Positions 1,414 through 34,438 of a DNA stretch of 37,671 bases are shown here, in pieces. The position numbers and the translations under genes were made by a program. A model generated the notes under the pieces. That model made no database searches and was not told where the DNA came from. It saw only the letters and a list, made by a program, of their open reading frames with translations. Origin of the DNA: an uncultured Hungatella sp. Its GTDB lineage: Bacteria > Bacillota > Clostridia > Lachnospirales > Lachnospiraceae. How positions within the stretch are numbered: position 1 is the stretch's first letter; each line of letters opens with the position of its first letter. The stretch covers positions 1 through 37,671 of the forward strand of contig CATLBO010000022.1 of NCBI GenBank assembly GCA_949879025.1, given 5' to 3'.

Positions 1414-2304
1414 CTACTGTACCGCCGCTTTCACTGCCTCCAAAAACTGTTTCACGATCCCGGAAGGCTGGGGAGAATGGAGCAGGCCGAAGGGAATGCC
1501 GTGTTCCCATTCCACCGGAATCACCTTCAAAAGCGGATGTACGCTGGCCCATCCCGGTATGGCAAGCAGAACGTCATTGCTGTTCTCACATCGGTTAAAA
1601 GCCTCCATACTGTAAAAATCAAAGTCCACAATATGGATCCGGCTGTGGTTCTGCCAGATGTCGTCCCGAAGCCGGTCCACATAATGGCTCCAATCCCGGC
1701 GCATAAGCATCAGGTTTTCCCCATACAGGTCTTCCGGCTTAAGCCTGTCCTTTTCCGCAAGCCTGTGGTGAATGGAAACCGCACAGCAAAAGGACTCACG
1801 GGACAGCTCCAATCCTGCGCAGCGCCGCAGCTCCAGCATGGTTTCGTCAAAAATCCCTCCCACCACATCAATGTTCTTTCCTAAATTTCCCAGGATCTCC
1901 CTGGCGTTTTCCGGCGTATTCTCAAACGGAATGATCTGGAATTTCATGTCCGGACAATGGGTCTGTATCTTGGGCCACAGCGGCATAAGAAGCTGGGCCG
2001 GCGTCATGGGGGAGCTGCCGATCCGGATCACCTTGGTATCCTCCTGCATGGCATTCTTCGCTCTTGTGACAGAATCCCGGCAATACTGAATCACATATTT
2101 CGTATCCTGATACAAGGATTTTCCTGCTTTTGTCAAAATCAGCCCCCTGTGAGTCCTCTCAAATAATTTGACGCCAAGAGAGGCCTCCAGAAGGTTGATC
2201 TGTTTGATGACCGCAGTAGGGGTAATATAGGATTCCTCGGCAGCTTTGTTAAAGCTGCCTGCGTCCGCCACATGGAGAAATGTGTCCAGCTGTGGATTAT
2301 ACAT
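1414..2304 (-). CDS. LysR-family transcriptional regulator
   Basis: A 296-residue LysR-type regulator. The N-terminal winged helix-turn-helix (about residues 1-60) is clear: YNPQLDTFLHVADAGSFNKA, then AVIKQINLLEASLGVKLFER. A periplasmic-binding-like effector domain follows to the C-terminus. An in-frame ATG at 2427 would add 41 unlikely residues; the ATG at 2304 is preferred because AAAGGAG lies at proper distance and the protein then begins at the canonical LysR position. It lies directly downstream of the EFR1 gene in the same direction (119 bases between), so it could be co-transcribed with it. Target genes cannot be read from this sequence. Confidence 0.88.
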   Translation of the reverse strand: MYNPQLDTFLHVADAGSFNKAAEESYITPTAVIKQINLLEASLGVKLFERTHRGLILTKAGKSLYQDTKYVIQYCRDSVTRAKNAMQEDTKVIRIGSSPMTPAQLLMPLWPKIQTHCPDMKFQIIPFENTPENAREILGNLGKNIDVVGGIFDETMLELRRCAGLELSRESFCCAVSIHHRLAEKDRLKPEDLYGENLMLMRRDWSHYVDRLRDDIWQNHSRIHIVDFDFYSMEAFNRCENSNDVLLAIPGWASVHPLLKVIPVEWEHGIPFGLLHSPQPSGIVKQFLEAVKAAVQ

Positions 2305-2423
2305 AAGGCAGGCACTCCTTTGCATTCTTGATCTTTCAGCAGTATTAATAAGAAACAGTTTACCAGATATTCCTAACAAATGTCTAACAATTTGATAAAC
2401 TATTTCTAAACTCCGAAAATTTT

Positions 2424-3200
2424 TCACCCCCTATGCTGATTGTTTGCCTCCACAATCTCCGTCAGGCGGATGAATTCGTTATGATAACGTTTATCCGGAT
2501 TCTTTTCCGGAATGGTCAGCCGGATAGCATTCTTTGGACAGTGGTGGATACACGCCATGCATACCTGGCAGTTTTCTCCCGTATTCACGGCTTTCTGATT
2601 CTCCACACGGATACAGCCCCCGGGACAGACTCTGGTACAGACCCCGCAGCCGATACAATCCCCGGTCACCTCATAAAGATTTTTCCAGAGTTTTTCCGGT
2701 TCTCCTGCCGTTCTCTCTATAAAAGCCCTGTGCCATCCCCGGTCCTCCTCCGTCGCCGGCTGTATCAGGCGCTTCCTGGCGGCAATATCCCGCCGGATGG
2801 CCTCTATGTGTTCCTCCACCTTCTTCTCCGGGTTGATGGCCAGCTGCTCCTCCATGTCAAACCCCGGCAGGTAATTATCCACCATCATTATGGTGTTGAT
2901 GTAATCCGCTTGTCTTTGGCAGGAATCCAAAAACTCTTTGGCAAGCTCCGCCCCTCCCCCATGCCTCTTTCCATAAGTCAGGACCAGGTAAAAATACTCC
3001 GTCCGAAACACGGCTTTCCTCAAAAATTCCTTCACCATGGCAGGCATCTCATGGCCATACAGGGGGCAGACCACCCCAATGGTATCCCCTTCAAAAACCA
3101 GTTCCTCCTCATGGATTGCCTGGGGAATACTGATTCGTTTTTCCTCTAACTTCTTTGCCACATACAGGCTGTTGCCTGTACCCGTAAAATAAAATACCAT
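2424..3200 (-). CDS. EFR1-type flavodoxin-ferredoxin fusion
   Basis: A 258-residue electron-transfer protein. Residues 1-110 form a flavodoxin-like domain with the FMN phosphate loop FTGTGNSLYVAK at residues 5-16. The C-terminal part carries two 4Fe-4S motifs: C182, C185, C188, C192 and C211, C214, C217, C221 (each CxxCxxC followed by CP or a variant). This is the EFR1 family common in Clostridia, expected to pass low-potential electrons between a flavin and iron-sulfur clusters in the cytoplasm. GGAGGGAGAAGGAT precedes the ATG. It is divergent from the LysR gene at 3424, the usual layout for a LysR-controlled gene, and has a clear promoter in the shared gap. The redox partner is unknown. Confidence 0.88.
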   Translation of the reverse strand: MVFYFTGTGNSLYVAKKLEEKRISIPQAIHEEELVFEGDTIGVVCPLYGHEMPAMVKEFLRKAVFRTEYFYLVLTYGKRHGGGAELAKEFLDSCQRQADYINTIMMVDNYLPGFDMEEQLAINPEKKVEEHIEAIRRDIAARKRLIQPATEEDRGWHRAFIERTAGEPEKLWKNLYEVTGDCIGCGVCTRVCPGGCIRVENQKAVNTGENCQVCMACIHHCPKNAIRLTIPEKNPDKRYHNEFIRLTEIVEANNQHRG

Positions 3201-3342
3201 ATCCTTCTCCCTCCTGTATTTGTCAATAGATCCTTATGCCCCAAAGCACCTTTGCTATTGAAAATGTTGTCCCTTTCTGCTATCATCATAACTGATACTT
3301 TGATTCATTGCTCTCACACCATTTTCCTTTGCTTCTGTTGGC

Positions 3343-3372
3343 ATTATAACGGATATTTCCTATAAAGTACAA
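3343..3372 (-). promoter_or_regulatory. Promoter of the EFR1 gene (TTGTAC-N18-TATAAT)
   Basis: On the minus strand TTGTAC (3372-3367) and TATAAT (3348-3343) are separated by 18 bases. The -35 region, CATTGTACTTTA, is repeated almost exactly at the AKR promoter (6036-6065) and as CATTATACTTTT at the PTS promoter. An A/T-rich, imperfect inverted repeat (ACAA...TTGT, about 3388-3402) lies upstream, in the gap shared with the divergent LysR gene, where a LysR protein would be expected to bind. Confidence 0.65.
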
Positions 3373-3423
3373 TGTCGATAAGGAATACAATTATAAATTT
3401 TGTTTATACTGAAAGGACCTGCC

Positions 3424-4263
3424 ATGATCGAACTCTATGAACTTCGGCAGTTCCTGGCCTTTGCAAAGGCCGGAACACTGTCAGAAGCCTCCGAAACCCT
3501 CCACCTTTCCCAGCCCGCCTTAAGCCGCAATATGAAAAAGCTGGAGGAGGATCTGGGCATTTCCCTTTTTCTCCGCCAGAAAAACAAACTGGAACTGAAT
3601 GAAAACGGAATGTATGTGCTGGAGCTTACAAAGAAACTTCTGGAAGACGCGGACCTGCTGGTGGCAAAGGCCAGAGACTATGACAGAAGGAACCGAACCA
3701 TCACCCTGGGACTGTGCGCCCCCGCCCCGGCCTGGCTCCTTACGCCGCTGATCTCCAACCTTTATCCCCATATGACCCTGCAGACCGAACTGAAGGACGA
3801 AGAGCGGCTGTTAAAAGACCTGGAAAATCAAGTGTACCATCTGGCAGTGGTCCACAGGCGGCCCAAAGACGGACCCTATTATGTAAAAGAATGCGGCAGG
3901 GAGAAGCTCTCCTTCTCCCTGCCCAAAGGCCACAGGTACGCCAGGCGAAAGAGCCTGTCCTTTCAGGAGATGAATGGAGAAAACATGCTCCTCATGTCTG
4001 ACATCGGTTTCTGGGACCTTCTCCACAGGGAAAAAATGCCGGATTCCCGCTTTCTCACCCAGTATGACCGTTTCAGTTTCAACGAACTGGTGGAGTCTTC
4101 CACCCTGCCTTCCTTTATCACGGATCTTTCAGAAAAATACATTGAAACAGCCTCCGGCCGTGTGACAGTCCCCATCTCAGATGAGGAGGCATCCGTGACC
4201 TATTACCTTGTATGCGGGAATGATAAAAAGAAAGAATTTTCGGCGCTGTTCGCCGCACTGTAG
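3424..4263 (+). CDS. LysR-family transcriptional regulator, divergent from EFR1 gene
   Basis: A 279-residue LysR-type regulator on the plus strand. It has an N-terminal helix-turn-helix (MIELYELRQFLAFAKAGTLS, then LHLSQPALSRNMKKLEEDLG) and a substrate-binding-like domain with conserved hydrophobic strands. An upstream in-frame ATG (3400) would add eight residues; the ATG at 3424 is preferred because AAAGGA lies 8 bases before it and the protein then starts at the family consensus. It is divergent from the EFR1 flavodoxin-ferredoxin gene and convergent with the AKR gene ending at 4284 (20-base gap, no clear terminator). By position it is the best candidate to regulate the EFR1 gene and perhaps the AKR pair. 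Confidence 0.88.
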   Translation: MIELYELRQFLAFAKAGTLSEASETLHLSQPALSRNMKKLEEDLGISLFLRQKNKLELNENGMYVLELTKKLLEDADLLVAKARDYDRRNRTITLGLCAPAPAWLLTPLISNLYPHMTLQTELKDEERLLKDLENQVYHLAVVHRRPKDGPYYVKECGREKLSFSLPKGHRYARRKSLSFQEMNGENMLLMSDIGFWDLLHREKMPDSRFLTQYDRFSFNELVESSTLPSFITDLSEKYIETASGRVTVPISDEEASVTYYLVCGNDKKKEFSALFAAL

Positions 4264-28654: not shown

Positions 28655-29083
28655 TCATTCCTCAAGAACTTTAAACTGCTTCATGCAGTATGTTTCAGTC
28701 AATTTTATAAATTCATCTGCTACGGCAACCTGCCTTTCAGATTCTTCCCGACTGGCAATATAAAAATCATCATAGTCACTCGCATGACGAATTTCTTCAG
28801 CCTCACCGATTTTTCTCCCTATCTCTCTGGGAAAAATCTCATTTTTAACATAGTCCTTATTAAAATTTGCGATAGCATCTTTATGGTGTTTATAAGATTT
28901 TTCGCTCAACGCATGAATCGCATTGATTGCATGAAAAATAGCATAGTAAGCTCGATTATTTGCTCCCTTATATTCCTCTGCCGCCAATAATATTCTTGCT
29001 GATTTCAAATCAGCTTTAGCGGTCTGGAGCCGATAAAGCACAAGGTCTTTTCTCGTTCCAATATCTTTTTTAGGACGCTCCAT
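28655..29083 (-). CDS. hepT: HEPN-domain toxin (HepT-like)
   Basis: A 142-residue all-helical HEPN protein. The putative RNase motif R-x6-H is R44 to H51 in NRAYYAIFHAINAIHAL, the typical Rx(4-6)H arrangement with the YYA-FH context of HepT proteins. It would act as a ribonuclease toxin, or as the target of the partner's nucleotidyl transfer. The start at 29083 is chosen because GAAGGGG lies about 9 bases before it; it overlaps the end of the MNT gene by 14 bases. The MNT gene comes first and HEPN second. In the studied MntA-HepT system MntA adds AMP residues to a HepT tyrosine; the YYA context here is compatible with that. Confidence 0.85.
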   Translation of the reverse strand: MERPKKDIGTRKDLVLYRLQTAKADLKSARILLAAEEYKGANNRAYYAIFHAINAIHALSEKSYKHHKDAIANFNKDYVKNEIFPREIGRKIGEAEEIRHASDYDDFYIASREESERQVAVADEFIKLTETYCMKQFKVLEE

Positions 29084-29411
29084 ATAAAACCACCCCTTCT
29101 TTATTAATATTTGCATAAAACGGATAATTAACTATCCATTTTCTAAAATGATCCTCACTCTTGGCAATAGGCTTTATATCCAAGTCATTATCCAGATTAA
29201 AATCAAAGGTCATATAGGAAAGCTGCTGGCTGTACACCTTTAAGTCCATATCAGACATATCAAGCAATATCATAATATCTATGTCTGAGTCTGCTTTGAA
29301 ATCGCCTCTGGCATAAGAGCCATACAAAATTATCTTGCGTAAATGCGTACCATATATCTTTTTGATTTCTGCAATATACTGTTCTATCACTCTTTTCATT
29401 GACTGTGGCAT
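29070..29411 (-). CDS. mntA: Minimal nucleotidyltransferase antitoxin (MntA-like)
   Basis: A 113-residue minimal nucleotidyltransferase. The signature GSYARGDFKADSDIDIMI (31-48) has the Gly-Ser pair and the two catalytic Asp residues, D43 and D45. It lacks a separate sensor domain, as expected for MNT proteins. It would transfer nucleotides (AMP in the known system) onto the HepT partner and so silence it. The ATG at 29411 is preferred over an earlier in-frame TTG because AGGAGG lies 7 bases before it. It overlaps the HEPN gene by 14 bases, as is usual for the pair. Confidence 0.88.
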   Translation of the reverse strand: MPQSMKRVIEQYIAEIKKIYGTHLRKIILYGSYARGDFKADSDIDIMILLDMSDMDLKVYSQQLSYMTFDFNLDNDLDIKPIAKSEDHFRKWIVNYPFYANINKEGVVLYGAS

Positions 29412-29473
29412 AGCCATACCTCCTGCCGATTGCAATCAGTTGCTTTAATCATATATACTATCAGTATGTCCTA

Positions 29474-29540: not shown

Positions 29541-30170
29541 TTATTTCAAATACATCCTTTCAGATAAATACTCTTCAAATTTCAAAATCATAAGGTCAAA
29601 AATTTCTTGTAACATGCTAATCTTATCCGAAATATTCACATACTCCACAGTTATCCCATTTTCACCATGTGCTATTCTATTTCTTTGATTAACCAATTGA
29701 TTGATTTCTCCTTGATACTTTGTCAAACAATTCTCCATTCCAAATTTCCCCAAAATTACAACCAATTGTTTATAATTCAAATTAGATTTAGCAGTAAGCA
29801 ATGCTGGATCTATATATAATGCTCTATCATAGTTTTCTGTAAACTTTTGAGCGAACTGGCAGGTTTGCTCAAAACTTTGCTTACCTGCAAGGGGCTTTAA
29901 TATGTCTTGTAAAGAAAATGCATACAATTCATTACGAACTAGTTTTTTATCCAAATGCAAATCATTTAAAAACGAAATAAGTTGCTTAAAACTTTCAACA
30001 ATAAAACCTTCCCAATGAGCATATATGTATGGAATACACATTCTATAATATTGATTTTTAACTTTTGGGGGATAAGTATTCAACGCTAAAATTCCAACTT
30101 TTTTCAAATCTTCCAGTTCTCTCATACGCCATTCTCTACTAGCTATTATTTCATTAGTAAGTGGATGCAT
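29541..30170 (-). CDS. MAE_28990/MAE_18760-like HEPN protein
   Basis: A 209-residue HEPN-family protein of the MAE_28990/MAE_18760 type. It has a conserved YAHWEGFIVESF helix and a C-terminal RNase-type motif, R163-x4-H168 in NQRNRIAHGENGI. It would be a predicted RNase (or nucleic-acid-binding toxin) kept in check by, or activated through, its partner. It begins 2 bases after the stop of the DUF262 gene, with GGAGG inside the end of that gene, so the two are translated as a unit. Base composition is lower in G+C than the metabolic region. No nuclease activity is known for this exact pair as far as I can tell. Confidence 0.82.
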   Translation of the reverse strand: MHPLTNEIIASREWRMRELEDLKKVGILALNTYPPKVKNQYYRMCIPYIYAHWEGFIVESFKQLISFLNDLHLDKKLVRNELYAFSLQDILKPLAGKQSFEQTCQFAQKFTENYDRALYIDPALLTAKSNLNYKQLVVILGKFGMENCLTKYQGEINQLVNQRNRIAHGENGITVEYVNISDKISMLQEIFDLMILKFEEYLSERMYLK

Positions 30171-30172
30171 TT

Positions 30173-31252
30173 TTATGCCTCCAATATTCCTAACAAAATC
30201 TGTTTTGCAATTTTAACTTTGTTTGTTATGCTCGTAGGATTACTGCTAGCTGAACCAACATATCTTGTAAATTCTTTTCTTTCCTTTAACTCCGCAATTC
30301 TTTTTCCTAATTCATCGATATTTATTTGTGATAGATTTGCACTTTCTTCTGATAAGCTTAACATTATTGCATCATACATACTTGTCGTAAAATATCTTCT
30401 TCCAAGCTTAAAAATATATTTCTCTTTTAACCCTTTAAGAACATTCATAATATTTTCAAACAGTTGTCTATCACTATTAACTATACTTTCATTAAACTCC
30501 CTACACTGGCTTTCTAAATAATCGTCCATATAATCCTGTATATTAGCTTGAGCATATCTAGTTCCTTGGTTCTTCAAAGTCAAGTATCTCAACACTAATT
30601 CTTCATAATACATCATCTCTTCATTTAATGTACTAATATTTACTATTTCTCTAAAAATCTCATTATTAGATAACTCTGCCACAAAATTACTATATCTACT
30701 ATCCAAACCTCTAAAAATACAATTTCGTATTTCTTGTCTTGACAAACCTTCTCCACCTGTATTTAATCTCTTAAAAAGTTCATACCGCATTTTGAATTCA
30801 CTTTCTTTAAGGATTATTTCCACTCTACATGGTGTACGTTTTATTTGAAGTTTATACTCTAATGGCAGAGTATCTATAGTAATGCCTTTTAGCCCCTTTA
30901 TTAAACTCCCCTCAACTAATTCTAGCCCATTTTTAGGATATGGATCTCCATTTTCATCTTTAAGTTCATTAAAAAATGCCAAAACTGTGGAAACTCTTTG
31001 AAGACCGTCAATTAATTCCCATTTACCATCTGGATTAGTTGCCACAAATATTGAGGGAAAAGGAATTCCCAATAATATTGATTCAATAAAATCAGACTGC
31101 CTCTGCTCATCCCACCTGAATGCCCTTTGATATTCTGGAGATATTATTATTTCCTTATCTTTATACATATTGATTATTTCTCCAAAAGACATATCCATTC
31201 TTTCAGATTTTATCTCTTGACGATACTTTTGAATTTCATCGCTAATATCCAT
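30173..31252 (-). CDS. DUF262 (GmrS/ParB-like) protein lacking an HNH domain
   Basis: A 359-residue DUF262 protein. The N-terminal ParB-fold NTP-binding region has ISPEYQRAFRWDEQRQSDFI (38-57) and the conserved DGxQR motif as IDGLQRVST (81-89). The stretch IFRGLDSRYSNFVAELSNNE and the helical C-terminus complete the DUF262 part. The DUF1524 HNH nuclease domain that follows in GmrSD and BrxU enzymes is absent; total length is about 60% of those. The adjacent HEPN protein could take its place as effector. GGAGG precedes the ATG, after an A/T-rich upstream region. The two genes look like a self-contained defence or toxin-antitoxin unit. Confidence 0.88.
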   Translation of the reverse strand: MDISDEIQKYRQEIKSERMDMSFGEIINMYKDKEIIISPEYQRAFRWDEQRQSDFIESILLGIPFPSIFVATNPDGKWELIDGLQRVSTVLAFFNELKDENGDPYPKNGLELVEGSLIKGLKGITIDTLPLEYKLQIKRTPCRVEIILKESEFKMRYELFKRLNTGGEGLSRQEIRNCIFRGLDSRYSNFVAELSNNEIFREIVNISTLNEEMMYYEELVLRYLTLKNQGTRYAQANIQDYMDDYLESQCREFNESIVNSDRQLFENIMNVLKGLKEKYIFKLGRRYFTTSMYDAIMLSLSEESANLSQINIDELGKRIAELKERKEFTRYVGSASSNPTSITNKVKIAKQILLGILEA

Positions 31253-31384
31253 ATAAACTTTCCTCCTTTTACCACTTATATTTCCCTATATAAAAATATC
31301 TTTTATTGATATAATATATTAGCAGTAGCATCTTCTTATATTCCAATTAAATGAGTTTTTATATTATACCCTCTAATCATTTTT

Positions 31385-31440: not shown

Positions 31441-31692
31441 TTAATTTTTCCTGTCAGTGTCAGTTATCCAAATCCGTTTTCTTATTATTTTCATTCCCCA
31501 TTTCTTCCGGTTCCATCGCCCTCCCAATTTTCCCAGCTTCTTCCTGATATTTGCTCTCCGACACATGGGTATAGATATCAATGGTTGTGCTGTAATGCTG
31601 GTGCCCCATAATGCTCTGCGCCACTTTGGGGGCTGCATCCCTGCCTCAAAGCAGTGGCTGCAAAAAGTATGCCGGATCGTATGTGGATACAT
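31441..31692 (-). pseudogene. Decayed second copy of the integrase 3' end
   Basis: Positions 31692-31505 repeat the 3' end of the complete integrase gene (about 33429-33245) with only scattered base changes: MYPHTIRHTFCSHCFEAGMQ matches MYPHAIRHTFCSRCFEAGMQ. A run of five G residues (on the plus strand, about 31627) where the intact gene has three shifts the frame, so the catalytic tyrosine segment (STTIDIYTHVSESKYQEE) is read only in another frame. Upstream similarity ends right at the MYPH codon. It is a dead copy left by recombination. Confidence 0.8.
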
Positions 31693-31724: not shown

Positions 31725-31940
31725 CTATCCTTTCAACATCCCTGCATACTTAACCTTTTCCTCTTTTGGTACCTTCAATGCCTCCATTGCCTGCTCTGCC
31801 GTCAGCTTCAAAGTCTCCATCAAATTCCGGATCGCATTTAATGTTGTTGTTTCTATACCTCGCTCTAGGCCAATCGCAATTCCTCTCTCCTCTACCCCTT
31901 TACTCAGATTACACATAACTACTGCTTTCTCGCTTTCCAA
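31725..31940 (-). pseudogene. Tandem copy of the 3' end of the PD-(D/E)XK gene
   Basis: An open frame beginning with TTG immediately after the TAA of the 31941 gene, in the same frame. It encodes LESEKAVVMCNLSKGVEERG and continues as a near-exact copy of the last 78 residues of that gene, minus 7 residues of the MERG repeats. It has no ribosome site of its own and only the C-terminal tail, so it is probably a duplication remnant; it could be translated only by readthrough or reinitiation. Confidence 0.75.
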
Positions 31941-32939
31941 TTAGCTCTTCAACATCCCTGTATACTTAACCTTTTCCTCTTCCGGTACCTTCAACGCCTC
32001 CATCGCCTGCTCTGCTGTCAGCTTCAAAGTCTCCATCAAATTCCGGATCGCATTTAATGTTGCTGCCTCCAAACCACGTTCCATACCACGTTCCATACCA
32101 CGCTCCAAGCCAATTGCAATTCCTCTTTCCTCTACCCCTTTACTCAGGTTACACATAGCCGACACCTCACTCTCTAATGTCTTTGTCATCGCAATATCAA
32201 AATCTTCCTGCAGGATTTTCTTCTTCTCTTCCGCCTCTTTTTCTGAAGACAAAAGCACATCCAGCAGTTTTAATATCCCTGTATAATTATTATCTCCTGC
32301 ATGACCCAGGCAGATCATGACCACAGTTAACAGATCATAATTTTCTTTCTGTTCTAACACCTGGCCTACCAGATTTTCTTCCTGAACACAGTATCTGGTG
32401 ATCGTATTCTCTCTCTTCTTTGGCGGATTGGGACATATCCATATGGAATATACCTTCCTTATCTTCTCATAATGGGTTTCCGTAAATTCCGAACCGTACT
32501 GGGAAGAGATCATCCGGCTGCAATAATACAACGCTCTCTTAATGATCGGATATCCTGGATAAAAATCATTTTGCGCTTCTACGTTGATGATCAGGCGGAT
32601 CGTCTCTCCGGTTCCCGGAACGGTTGCCAGAAAACGGATATCATAAGTGATCGTTCCTTCCTGTATCGTACTGTCCTCGTTCTTCGCTCCCCGGATCTGT
32701 TCACTGCCCTCATATCCATCTTCATCCGGATTGACAGCTGCTTCTGCAATCTGAGGGATTCCCTCTATATATCTTTCCGCTATCTCCTTGATACTATGGG
32801 CCTTATACTCTTCCATACAGCTTTTCATGATCCACGCCAGAATGACCTTATTGGCCAGGAGCCGTTTACATGCTGCATCATAAGCGGCCTTTTCACCTGC
32901 CGCTGTAATATTTTTTGCCAGTATATTCTCAATCTCCAT
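31941..32939 (-). CDS. Rpn-family/PD-(D/E)XK nuclease 'transposase'
   Basis: A 332-residue member of the Rpn/PD-(D/E)XK 'transposase' family. The nuclease core has D100 (GTITYDIRF) and the E121-x-Q123 pair (LIINVEAQNDFYPGYP), followed by KRALYYCSRMISSQYG and VYSIWICPNPPKKRENTITR. The C-terminus contains a variable repeat (GLERGMERGMERGLEAA), typical of these proteins and often changing copy number. Rpn proteins are DNA endonucleases that promote RecA-independent recombination. AAAGGAG precedes the ATG. It lies downstream of the integrase in the same direction; its 3' end is duplicated right behind it. Confidence 0.88.
   Translation of the reverse strand: MEIENILAKNITAAGEKAAYDAACKRLLANKVILAWIMKSCMEEYKAHSIKEIAERYIEGIPQIAEAAVNPDEDGYEGSEQIRGAKNEDSTIQEGTITYDIRFLATVPGTGETIRLIINVEAQNDFYPGYPIIKRALYYCSRMISSQYGSEFTETHYEKIRKVYSIWICPNPPKKRENTITRYCVQEENLVGQVLEQKENYDLLTVVMICLGHAGDNNYTGILKLLDVLLSSEKEAEEKKKILQEDFDIAMTKTLESEVSAMCNLSKGVEERGIAIGLERGMERGMERGLEAATLNAIRNLMETLKLTAEQAMEALKVPEEEKVKYTGMLKS
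32074..32109 (-). repeat. Three 12-bp coding repeats (MERG units)
   Basis: CCACGTTCCATA occurs twice in a row and a third time as CCACGCTCCAAG. These encode MERG, MERG and LERG units in the PD-(D/E)XK gene. The tandem copy at 31725-31940 has only one unit, showing copy-number change. Confidence 0.85.
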
Positions 32940-33172: not shown

Positions 33173-34438
33173 TTAACCGAATGTCTGCATCATTCCAGGA
33201 TCTGTGGTCTCCTCTGGTTCTTCCCCACTGCTACTTTCTTCCAGTTCCATCGCCCTCCCAAATTTCCCAACTTCTTCTTGATATTTGCTCTCCGACACAT
33301 GGGTATAGATATCAATGGTTGTGCTGTAATGCTGATGCCCCATAATACTCTGCACCACTTTGGGCTGCATCCCTGCTTCAAAGCAGCGGCTGCAAAAAGT
33401 ATGCCGGATCGCATGTGGATACATATCTTCAAAATAATGAGGCTCCCTCTGCTCCTGTACCGACTCAAACGCCTCCTGCTCATTGATCTCCTTCACCACT
33501 TTTTTGATTTCCTTTTCCGCATGATAACGGAGCACCGGACTTCCCATGGTGGTGACAAATACCAGATCCGCATATTCACCAGTTGCCCTAAAACGGTTTC
33601 CCAGCGCTTTTTTCAGGCAGTCGGTCTTTGCTTTCTGCTGCAGGAGCATTTCTTCTGCCTCCCCAAAAAATGGAATCTTCCTGTAGGAATTATGGGTCTT
33701 GGGAGACAGGAGGCGCAGCATCTTTTTTCCATATTCGTACTGGCAGGAAAGGGATCGATTGATACGGAGACATTTTTCATTAAAATCTACATCTTTCCAC
33801 ATCAGGCCTCCTACCTCTCCGATCCTCATCCCTGTCAGAAACATCAAATAAAACATTTCCTTATACCAGCTATGCTCTACCGTCTTTAAAAATGTATTCT
33901 GTTCCTCCCTGGACAGAAAGCGGCGTGTCACCTGCCTGTTTTCCCAAGGAACACTGATCTCAAAGCAGGGATTGATCGAAAGGATCTGGTTATTCCTGGC
34001 AGATTCCATACATTCCCGCATTCTTCCAAGCGCCTCCCGCATGGACGAAACCGCCCGTCCATCGCTGCTCATTTGGTTAATGACACTCTGAATGTCAATA
34101 TTGGTGATATCACACAGCTTTCTTTCTCCCAGATATTTGCCGAATGAACCGTAAAATTTATTTTTCATGGGATAAACACTGGTTTCTTTAACTACCGGAA
34201 GCTTATATGTCTGAAACCATTCTTCAAACCATTCATTCAGTGTTATATGTTTCCTTCTAAAATCAATGCTGTTCTGTACCTCTTCCTTTAATTCCTGAAA
34301 TTCTTTTTTCAGTTCCCGCAGATTGAATCCATAGATGCTGACATCACTTCCATTTATCTTTGTTCTGGCCTCATATCTTCCATCCTTTCGCTGATACAGA
34401 CCCTTTCCCAGTTCTCTTCCCTTTAAATCTTTTCCCAT
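33173..34438 (-). CDS. int: Tyrosine recombinase/integrase (Tn916-like)
   Basis: A 421-residue integrase. The N-terminal AP2-like arm-binding domain (LGKGLYQRKDGRYEARTKIN) is followed by a SAM-like core-binding domain. The catalytic domain has R205 (LTGMRIGEVGG), H342 and R345 (HAIRHTF), H368 (IMGHQHYS) and Y378 (IDIYTHV). This is the Tn916/CTn integrase type, which cuts and rejoins element ends through a phosphotyrosine link. It lies 33 bases after the excisionase gene. A decayed copy of its 3' end lies 1.7 kb downstream. The intact catalytic set suggests it could still work. Confidence 0.93.
   Translation of the reverse strand: MGKDLKGRELGKGLYQRKDGRYEARTKINGSDVSIYGFNLRELKKEFQELKEEVQNSIDFRRKHITLNEWFEEWFQTYKLPVVKETSVYPMKNKFYGSFGKYLGERKLCDITNIDIQSVINQMSSDGRAVSSMREALGRMRECMESARNNQILSINPCFEISVPWENRQVTRRFLSREEQNTFLKTVEHSWYKEMFYLMFLTGMRIGEVGGLMWKDVDFNEKCLRINRSLSCQYEYGKKMLRLLSPKTHNSYRKIPFFGEAEEMLLQQKAKTDCLKKALGNRFRATGEYADLVFVTTMGSPVLRYHAEKEIKKVVKEINEQEAFESVQEQREPHYFEDMYPHAIRHTFCSRCFEAGMQPKVVQSIMGHQHYSTTIDIYTHVSESKYQEEVGKFGRAMELEESSSGEEPEETTDPGMMQTFG

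Follow-up and report, generated by a model that had tools for sequence, protein, structure and literature searches.

What might a DUF262 protein do when it stands without the HNH nuclease part, and with a HEPN gene close behind it? The question is posed by a locus of an uncultured Hungatella sp., within a stretch of 37,671 nucleotides that was analysed as a whole and is called the window here. A sequence-only reading had described a solo DUF262 gene for 359 residues, a HEPN gene lying 2 bases past its stop, a ribosome site for the latter inside the former, and three motifs: PEYQRAFRW (residues 39-47) and IDGLQR (81-86) in DUF262, and RNRIAH (R163, H168) in HEPN. Direct reading of the sequence bears out this anatomy in full (Table 1), and the DUF262 protein gives no Pfam match to DUF1524. 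NCBIfam supplied no name for either gene, and promoter-like sites around the pair were not above shuffled sequence (8, against a shuffle mean of 13.2). The reading went on to propose a split defence unit in which an RNA-cutting HEPN replaces the DNA-cutting HNH, with the neighbouring MntA-HepT genes as support. How much of that proposal survives?

Table 1. The DUF262-HEPN pair and its neighbour in the window
Feature	Coordinates	Strand	Remarks
DUF262 (GmrSD_N) gene	31252..30173	minus	359 aa; ATG start; DUF1524 absent
HEPN gene	30170..29541	minus	209 aa; ATG start; RiboL-PSP/MAE_28990 type; predicted RNase effector
Junction	30171..30182	minus	GGAGG ribosome site within the final DUF262 codons, stop, 2 bases, HEPN start
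DUF262 leader	31253..31275	minus	AAAGGAGGAAAG-type ribosome site, read from sequence
MntA-like nucleotidyltransferase + HEPN (PF05168) pair	28655-29435		own HEPN gene at 28655-29116; toxin-antitoxin-like

The window's DUF262 protein matches Pfam PF03235 (GmrSD_N) at 94.3 bits over residues 25-180, and the HEPN protein matches PF18735 at 101 bits, the one PF18735 match in its genome, and PF18737 at 62 bits. No DUF1524/HNH match was found by Pfam among nine window proteins, the DUF262 protein included, and as none is fused or adjacent, membership of GmrSD is rejected. In PADLOC 2.0.0 the best match of the DUF262 protein is NsnA, at 213 bits; the Nsn names (NsnA, NsnB, NsnC) we take to be those of Menshen. 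PD-T4-2_A is matched at 148 bits, its 363-position model spanning residues 24-353. NsnA outscores PD-T4-2_A in 11 further DUF262 proteins too. The window's HEPN protein has no match to the 168-position PD-T4-2_B model at a limit of E<=10, with filters that drop most matches above about 0.1, and its PADLOC matches are weak ones (16 bits at most) to CARF-HEPN, Csm6 and a DRT HEPN. A single one of 11 further partner genes, from an Akkermansia phage, matches PD-T4-2_B (18.5 bits); at E<=0.001 none of 299 genomes from the window's phylum gave a match to this model, and of 14 control genomes one did. A search for solved structures found none for either family, returning three sequences for DUF262, over short stretches (best E 9.7e-5), and unrelated molecules for HEPN (best E 0.16). 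A DUF262-HEPN fusion was not found among the ORFs of 224 records.

Is the adjacency a peculiarity of this one contig? We took as bait an alignment of five DUF262 proteins, the window's own and those of four plasmid relatives, each with HEPN next door. Genomes were scanned with it, one per species, and the best 80 of at least 551 DUF262 relatives were taken. The gene next on the same strand is a HEPN gene by profile in 77 of these 80 loci. The sequence-only reading had proposed such a count; rare adjacency was not seen, and the count rules out chance adjacency of DUF262 and HEPN. Because the bait consisted of pair carriers and the best 80 of at least 551 were taken, the figure describes one clade and not all DUF262 proteins. 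The 80 loci come from 11 named phyla, with 76 in Bacteria, 3 in Archaea and 1 without a domain; the HEPN-paired 77 span 10 named phyla, since the sole Acidobacteriota locus (L107) is one of those that have no HEPN, an apparent transposase, judged by eye, following its DUF262. Of the other two exceptions, L079 has no HEPN beside DUF262, and L046 lacks the usual HEPN and has directly upstream of DUF262 another gene, one that bears an RNDAGH motif in its C-terminal part (2982-3905). As an aside, positions 8092-8807 of L079 read as short peptides repeated over several reading frames (e.g. SIPYGYGS), and look like a CRISPR array.

The two genes are also closely coupled. In 74 of the 77 pairs from the best 80 of at least 551 the stop-to-start distance lies between -20 and +18 bases, a measure that favours short gaps in that the start nearest the stop was chosen; in L094, L101 and L109 a HEPN start overlapping DUF262 by 8, 8 and 11 bases exists. 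Among viral contigs, 73 of 80 DUF262 loci meet the adjacency rule for HEPN. As for the seven that fail it, one has an overlapping HEPN (L180), four end right after DUF262 (L171, L193, L194, L199) and two have none (L192, L202). Of eight plasmid regions with relatives, seven bear HEPN; among six phage regions four have a HEPN profile match, and the other two (L122, L123) carry a gene with an R-x4-H motif that the profile missed.

How common is the pair? When the window's DUF262 protein alone served as query against 398 genomes from its phylum, 25 gave a match, and HEPN lay next door by profile in 8 of the 25: the six best (G000, G211, G155, G116, G348, G325), and G097 and G207. Three genomes that rank above the last two (G084, G276 and G310, E 1e-36 to 1e-30) have no HEPN by profile next door. 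The weaker matches among the 25 showed no HEPN in 1.5-kb flanks, apart from G311, in which the gene after DUF262 has an RNKLAH motif and no profile match. From the HEPN side, the PF18735 cut-off was passed in 9 of the 398 genomes, and 7 of the 9 have DUF262 directly upstream; of the other two, G376 has a ParA-like gene upstream, by eye, and G307 has no DUF262 in the stretch examined. Overall, few of the genomes carry the pair, yet it is constant wherever the window's DUF262 clade occurs. A PF18735 HEPN behind a ParA/Soj-like ATPase, judged by eye, was noticed in L211 as well (1477-3134), and fits the MAE_18760 operons listed in 2013.

In both proteins the catalytic residues hardly vary. An alignment of 76 HEPN proteins from the best 80 of at least 551, with two broken copies (L039, L074) and the three loci without HEPN left out, matches PF18735 and PF18737 throughout at E<=0.01; R163 is conserved in 75 of the 76, the exception being a C in L056, and N164, H168, Y50 and E54 are conserved in all. 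In the DUF262 proteins of the same set, with the broken L087 and with L039 omitted, P39, Q42, R43, R46, W47 and D82-R86 (DGLQR) are conserved in 79 of 79. Among viral HEPN loci the stricter pattern RN-x3-H is not universal: 69 of 74 have it. DGLQR was considered as a mark of HEPN partnership and rejected: it occurs also in three of six long GmrSD-type proteins and in both Menshen-labelled ones.

Do the two proteins diverge together? Over 75 loci the DUF262 and HEPN distance matrices correlate with r = 0.82, a value reached in none of 2000 permutations, and when far pairs alone are taken the correlation is 0.55; it is in part the product of shared descent. The HEPN protein diverges faster, that of L044 being 50% identical to the window's as against 76% for DUF262. 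Compared with a 91%-identical relative (L040), DUF262 shows dN 0.047 and dS 0.77 (dN/dS about 0.06), and HEPN dN 0.077 and dS 0.81 (dN/dS about 0.10), rates that suggest purifying selection on each. Interruptions occur in either gene, HEPN being interrupted in L039 and L074, with two stops reported in L209, and DUF262 in L087, with L003 annotated as two pieces. DUF262 was the bait, and no asymmetry between the two is claimed for that reason.

What is already known of such pairs? In 2013 Anantharaman et al. (PMC3710099) drew up a table of such HEPN families that stand in operons with ParB-type genes; it lists the MAE_28990 HEPN "in operon with a ParB nuclease and DNA methylase genes", RiboL-PSP as "operon with ParB", and one HEPN fused to ParB (DUF262) and HNH. 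The window's pair, too, joins a HEPN of these families and a ParB/DUF262 gene in a single operon; it differs in that no methylase was found in the window, and the 2013 entry is itself a genomic prediction. The closest system with a phenotype is PD-T4-2 of E. coli, found by selection against T4 by Vassallo et al. in 2022 (PMC9519451) and placed under both DUF262 and PF18735 HEPN in a 2023 review (PMC10952713). The solo DUF262 of the window is homologous over its length to PD-T4-2_A, even though NsnA scores higher, and its partner is likewise a PF18735 HEPN. The partner lacks a PD-T4-2_B match, however, so that we regard the window's pair as working like PD-T4-2 and not as a member of it; authentic PD-T4-2 was represented in this comparison by the PADLOC models only. 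On these sequence matches the pair is a divergent relative of PD-T4-2. The passages on PD-T4-2 in these papers give no mechanism, and the text of PMC9519451, where 12 of 21 systems are abortive, does not class PD-T4-2 itself as one or the other. No study of the window's DUF262-HEPN clade appeared among the literature matches listed, and the NsnA names gave nothing relevant.

As a kind, then, the DUF262-HEPN pairing is already in print (PMC3710099, PMC10952713, PMC9519451), and would not surprise a specialist; the observation itself is confirmed, and its functional reading is plausible. Where there had been a 2013 table entry and a single E. coli system, the counts now give a defined and widespread two-gene clade. 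What is new is that the clade spans phyla, that its pairing is constant and that PADLOC 2.0.0 does not call it as a pair. It may be used to ask what DUF262 senses when there is no HNH, and whether the adjacent methylase, where present, protects self.

Did HEPN take the place of HNH? The window's pair shares with GmrSD, BrxU and SspE the DUF262 domain and its DGxQR motif, and differs from them in having no DUF1524/HNH. We made a quick tree of 53 chosen DUF262 proteins, in which the label Menshen for L017 and the gene types of L021 and L107 were judged by eye. A branch of 30 that includes the window has 97% SH-aLRT support, and 27 of the 30 have HEPN, the exceptions being L046, L079 and L107. 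Outside it stand further proteins paired with HEPN or a HEPN-like gene: L007 (E. coli plasmid), the phages L119, L120, L122, L123 and L124, L224 (Exiguobacterium), and L020 and L021. The NsnA proteins are separate, and the long GmrSD-type proteins, from which the window lies apart, group with 20% support only. Because the deep branches are weak, with 19 of 50 inner branches weakly supported, the direction of any HNH/HEPN exchange is not to be read from the tree. The tree is compatible with a long-standing lineage in which solo DUF262 goes with HEPN, and a recent swap of HNH for HEPN is not seen in it. The replacement claimed earlier is thus not borne out, the window belonging to a supported solo-DUF262 clade.

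How might such a pair work? It probably serves in defence against phages as a two-gene unit of the PD-T4-2 kind, with DUF262 as sensor and brake, HEPN as RNase, and a presumed abortive outcome. DUF262, the regulator, would recognise some feature of an invader through its nucleotide-binding DGxQR site; if GmrSD, BrxU and SspE are a guide, that feature is probably phage DNA. In GmrS the corresponding DGQQR is an NTP pocket (PMC10952713). In the uninfected cell DUF262 would hold HEPN quiet. HEPN, the putative effector, would be a metal-independent RNase with an R-N-x3-H site, and once released would cut cellular or phage RNA, so that the infected cell is stopped. The regulator-then-toxin order, the close coupling and the constant pairing support joint action of the two proteins. 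A defence role is favoured by PD-T4-2, which is listed with these two domains (PMC10952713) and whose deletion raises T4 plaquing (PMC9519451). The RNase site is supported by the conserved residues and by the account in PMC3710099 of Rx4-6H as an RNase site, in which mutants of RNase L, RloC and PrrC are described. We infer the interaction, the restraint, the trigger, the RNA target and the abortive outcome. Of the sequence-only proposal, what stands is a conserved unit with correlated divergence, an intact-looking HEPN motif and the domain make-up of PD-T4-2; the HNH replacement is not borne out, and the support from MntA-HepT falls away.

An alternative, which we judge unlikely, is a two-step defence of the restriction type, in which DUF262 itself would act on invading DNA and HEPN would be a fail-safe RNase, freed when DUF262 is blocked or overwhelmed, as with PrrC. 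Such an arrangement has been proposed for restriction-tied HEPNs, whose partners would restrain the RNase (PMC3710099), and it would suit the listing there of MAE_28990 with a ParB nuclease and a DNA methylase, and the DNA nicking by ParB/Srx proteins cited in PMC12839542. The flanks analysed contain a methylase-like ORF at 11 of 80 genome loci (best 80 of at least 551) and 22 of 80 viral loci; at 5 and 11 of these, respectively, it is the immediate neighbour on the same strand. These are raw counts from a detector whose reach is limited, being built on four seed proteins and motifs, and they include near copies among the viral loci, and L107 and L202, which have no HEPN. In an Akkermansia phage (L123, 1803-4613) an annotated DNA methyltransferase gene shares 8 bases with DUF262, and next, after a gap of 2 bases, comes a gene with an RNLLVH motif. 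Against the two-step scheme, the same detector found no methylase in the window, nor in the flanks of 69 of the 80 genome loci (best 80 of at least 551) and 58 of the 80 viral loci, and nuclease activity of DUF262 is putative in the window's clade. One might go further and imagine an immune family, as yet without a name and spread over several phyla, whose GmrS-type domain senses DNA or its modification and gates an RNase directly, a DNA methylase being an optional third member to mark self; the logic would be that of restriction-modification, the outcome RNA cutting. This we offer as a doubtful speculation.

Could the pair be a plain toxin-antitoxin system that stabilises a mobile element, DUF262 being an antitoxin only and sensing no infection? 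The regulator gene does come first and the toxin second, and the setting is mobile: integrase, excisionase-like and ArdA-like genes lie upstream of the pair, and relatives are found on plasmids and in phages. We nevertheless think this quite improbable, since deletion of PD-T4-2 from ECOR65 raised T4 plaquing (PMC9519451), and since DGLQR in 79 of 79 DUF262 proteins (best 80 of at least 551) seems beyond the need of an antitoxin that merely binds. DUF262 persists without an intact HEPN in L039, L046, L079 and L107, a finding that does not decide the matter. That the two genes are an incomplete Menshen or GmrSD system, a DUF262 leftover with HEPN a chance neighbour, is very hard to credit: NsnA, a solo DUF262, is the best PADLOC match, yet the 77 of 80 adjacency (best 80 of at least 551) over 10 named phyla contradicts it, purifying selection seems to act on the two genes alike, and the strong NsnA of L008 has NsnB, an ATPase, and NsnC adjoining, not HEPN.

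Related memberships were tried and rejected. In the four window proteins run through PADLOC there was no NsnB or NsnC match, the Rpn and integrase neighbours having been scanned by Pfam only, and Menshen is set aside on that account. MntA-HepT (type VII toxin-antitoxin), PrrC and RloC likewise have a HEPN toxin under a regulator, but their HEPN families are other ones and the regulator is a nucleotidyltransferase or an ABC ATPase; type VII is rejected, the partner here being DUF262.

What of the MntA-HepT genes in the window? The MntA-like gene scores 35.9 bits against the NCBIfam MntA model, below the cut-off of 60. Among eight relatives compared, MntA-HepT adjoins the pair in L039 and L041, which are near-identical strains, and was not found near it in L040, L042, L043, L044, L045 and L011, the flanks of L043 and L011 being short. 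We therefore reject it as a member of the module, and the neighbourhood lends the defence unit no such support as had been drawn from it. In one of these strains (L039, 2888-3517) a HEPN gene with an early stop stands beside a DUF262 identical to the window's, while HEPN is intact in the window and in L041.

Most likely the DUF262-HEPN pair sits as cargo at the edge of an integrated element. Two copies of the integrase gene's 3' end, 95% identical, lie at 31501-31692 and 33235-33424, and the duplication is perhaps the trace of an earlier element. Part of an Rpn-type nuclease gene is also duplicated, at 31732-31917 and 31948-32157 (85-90%).
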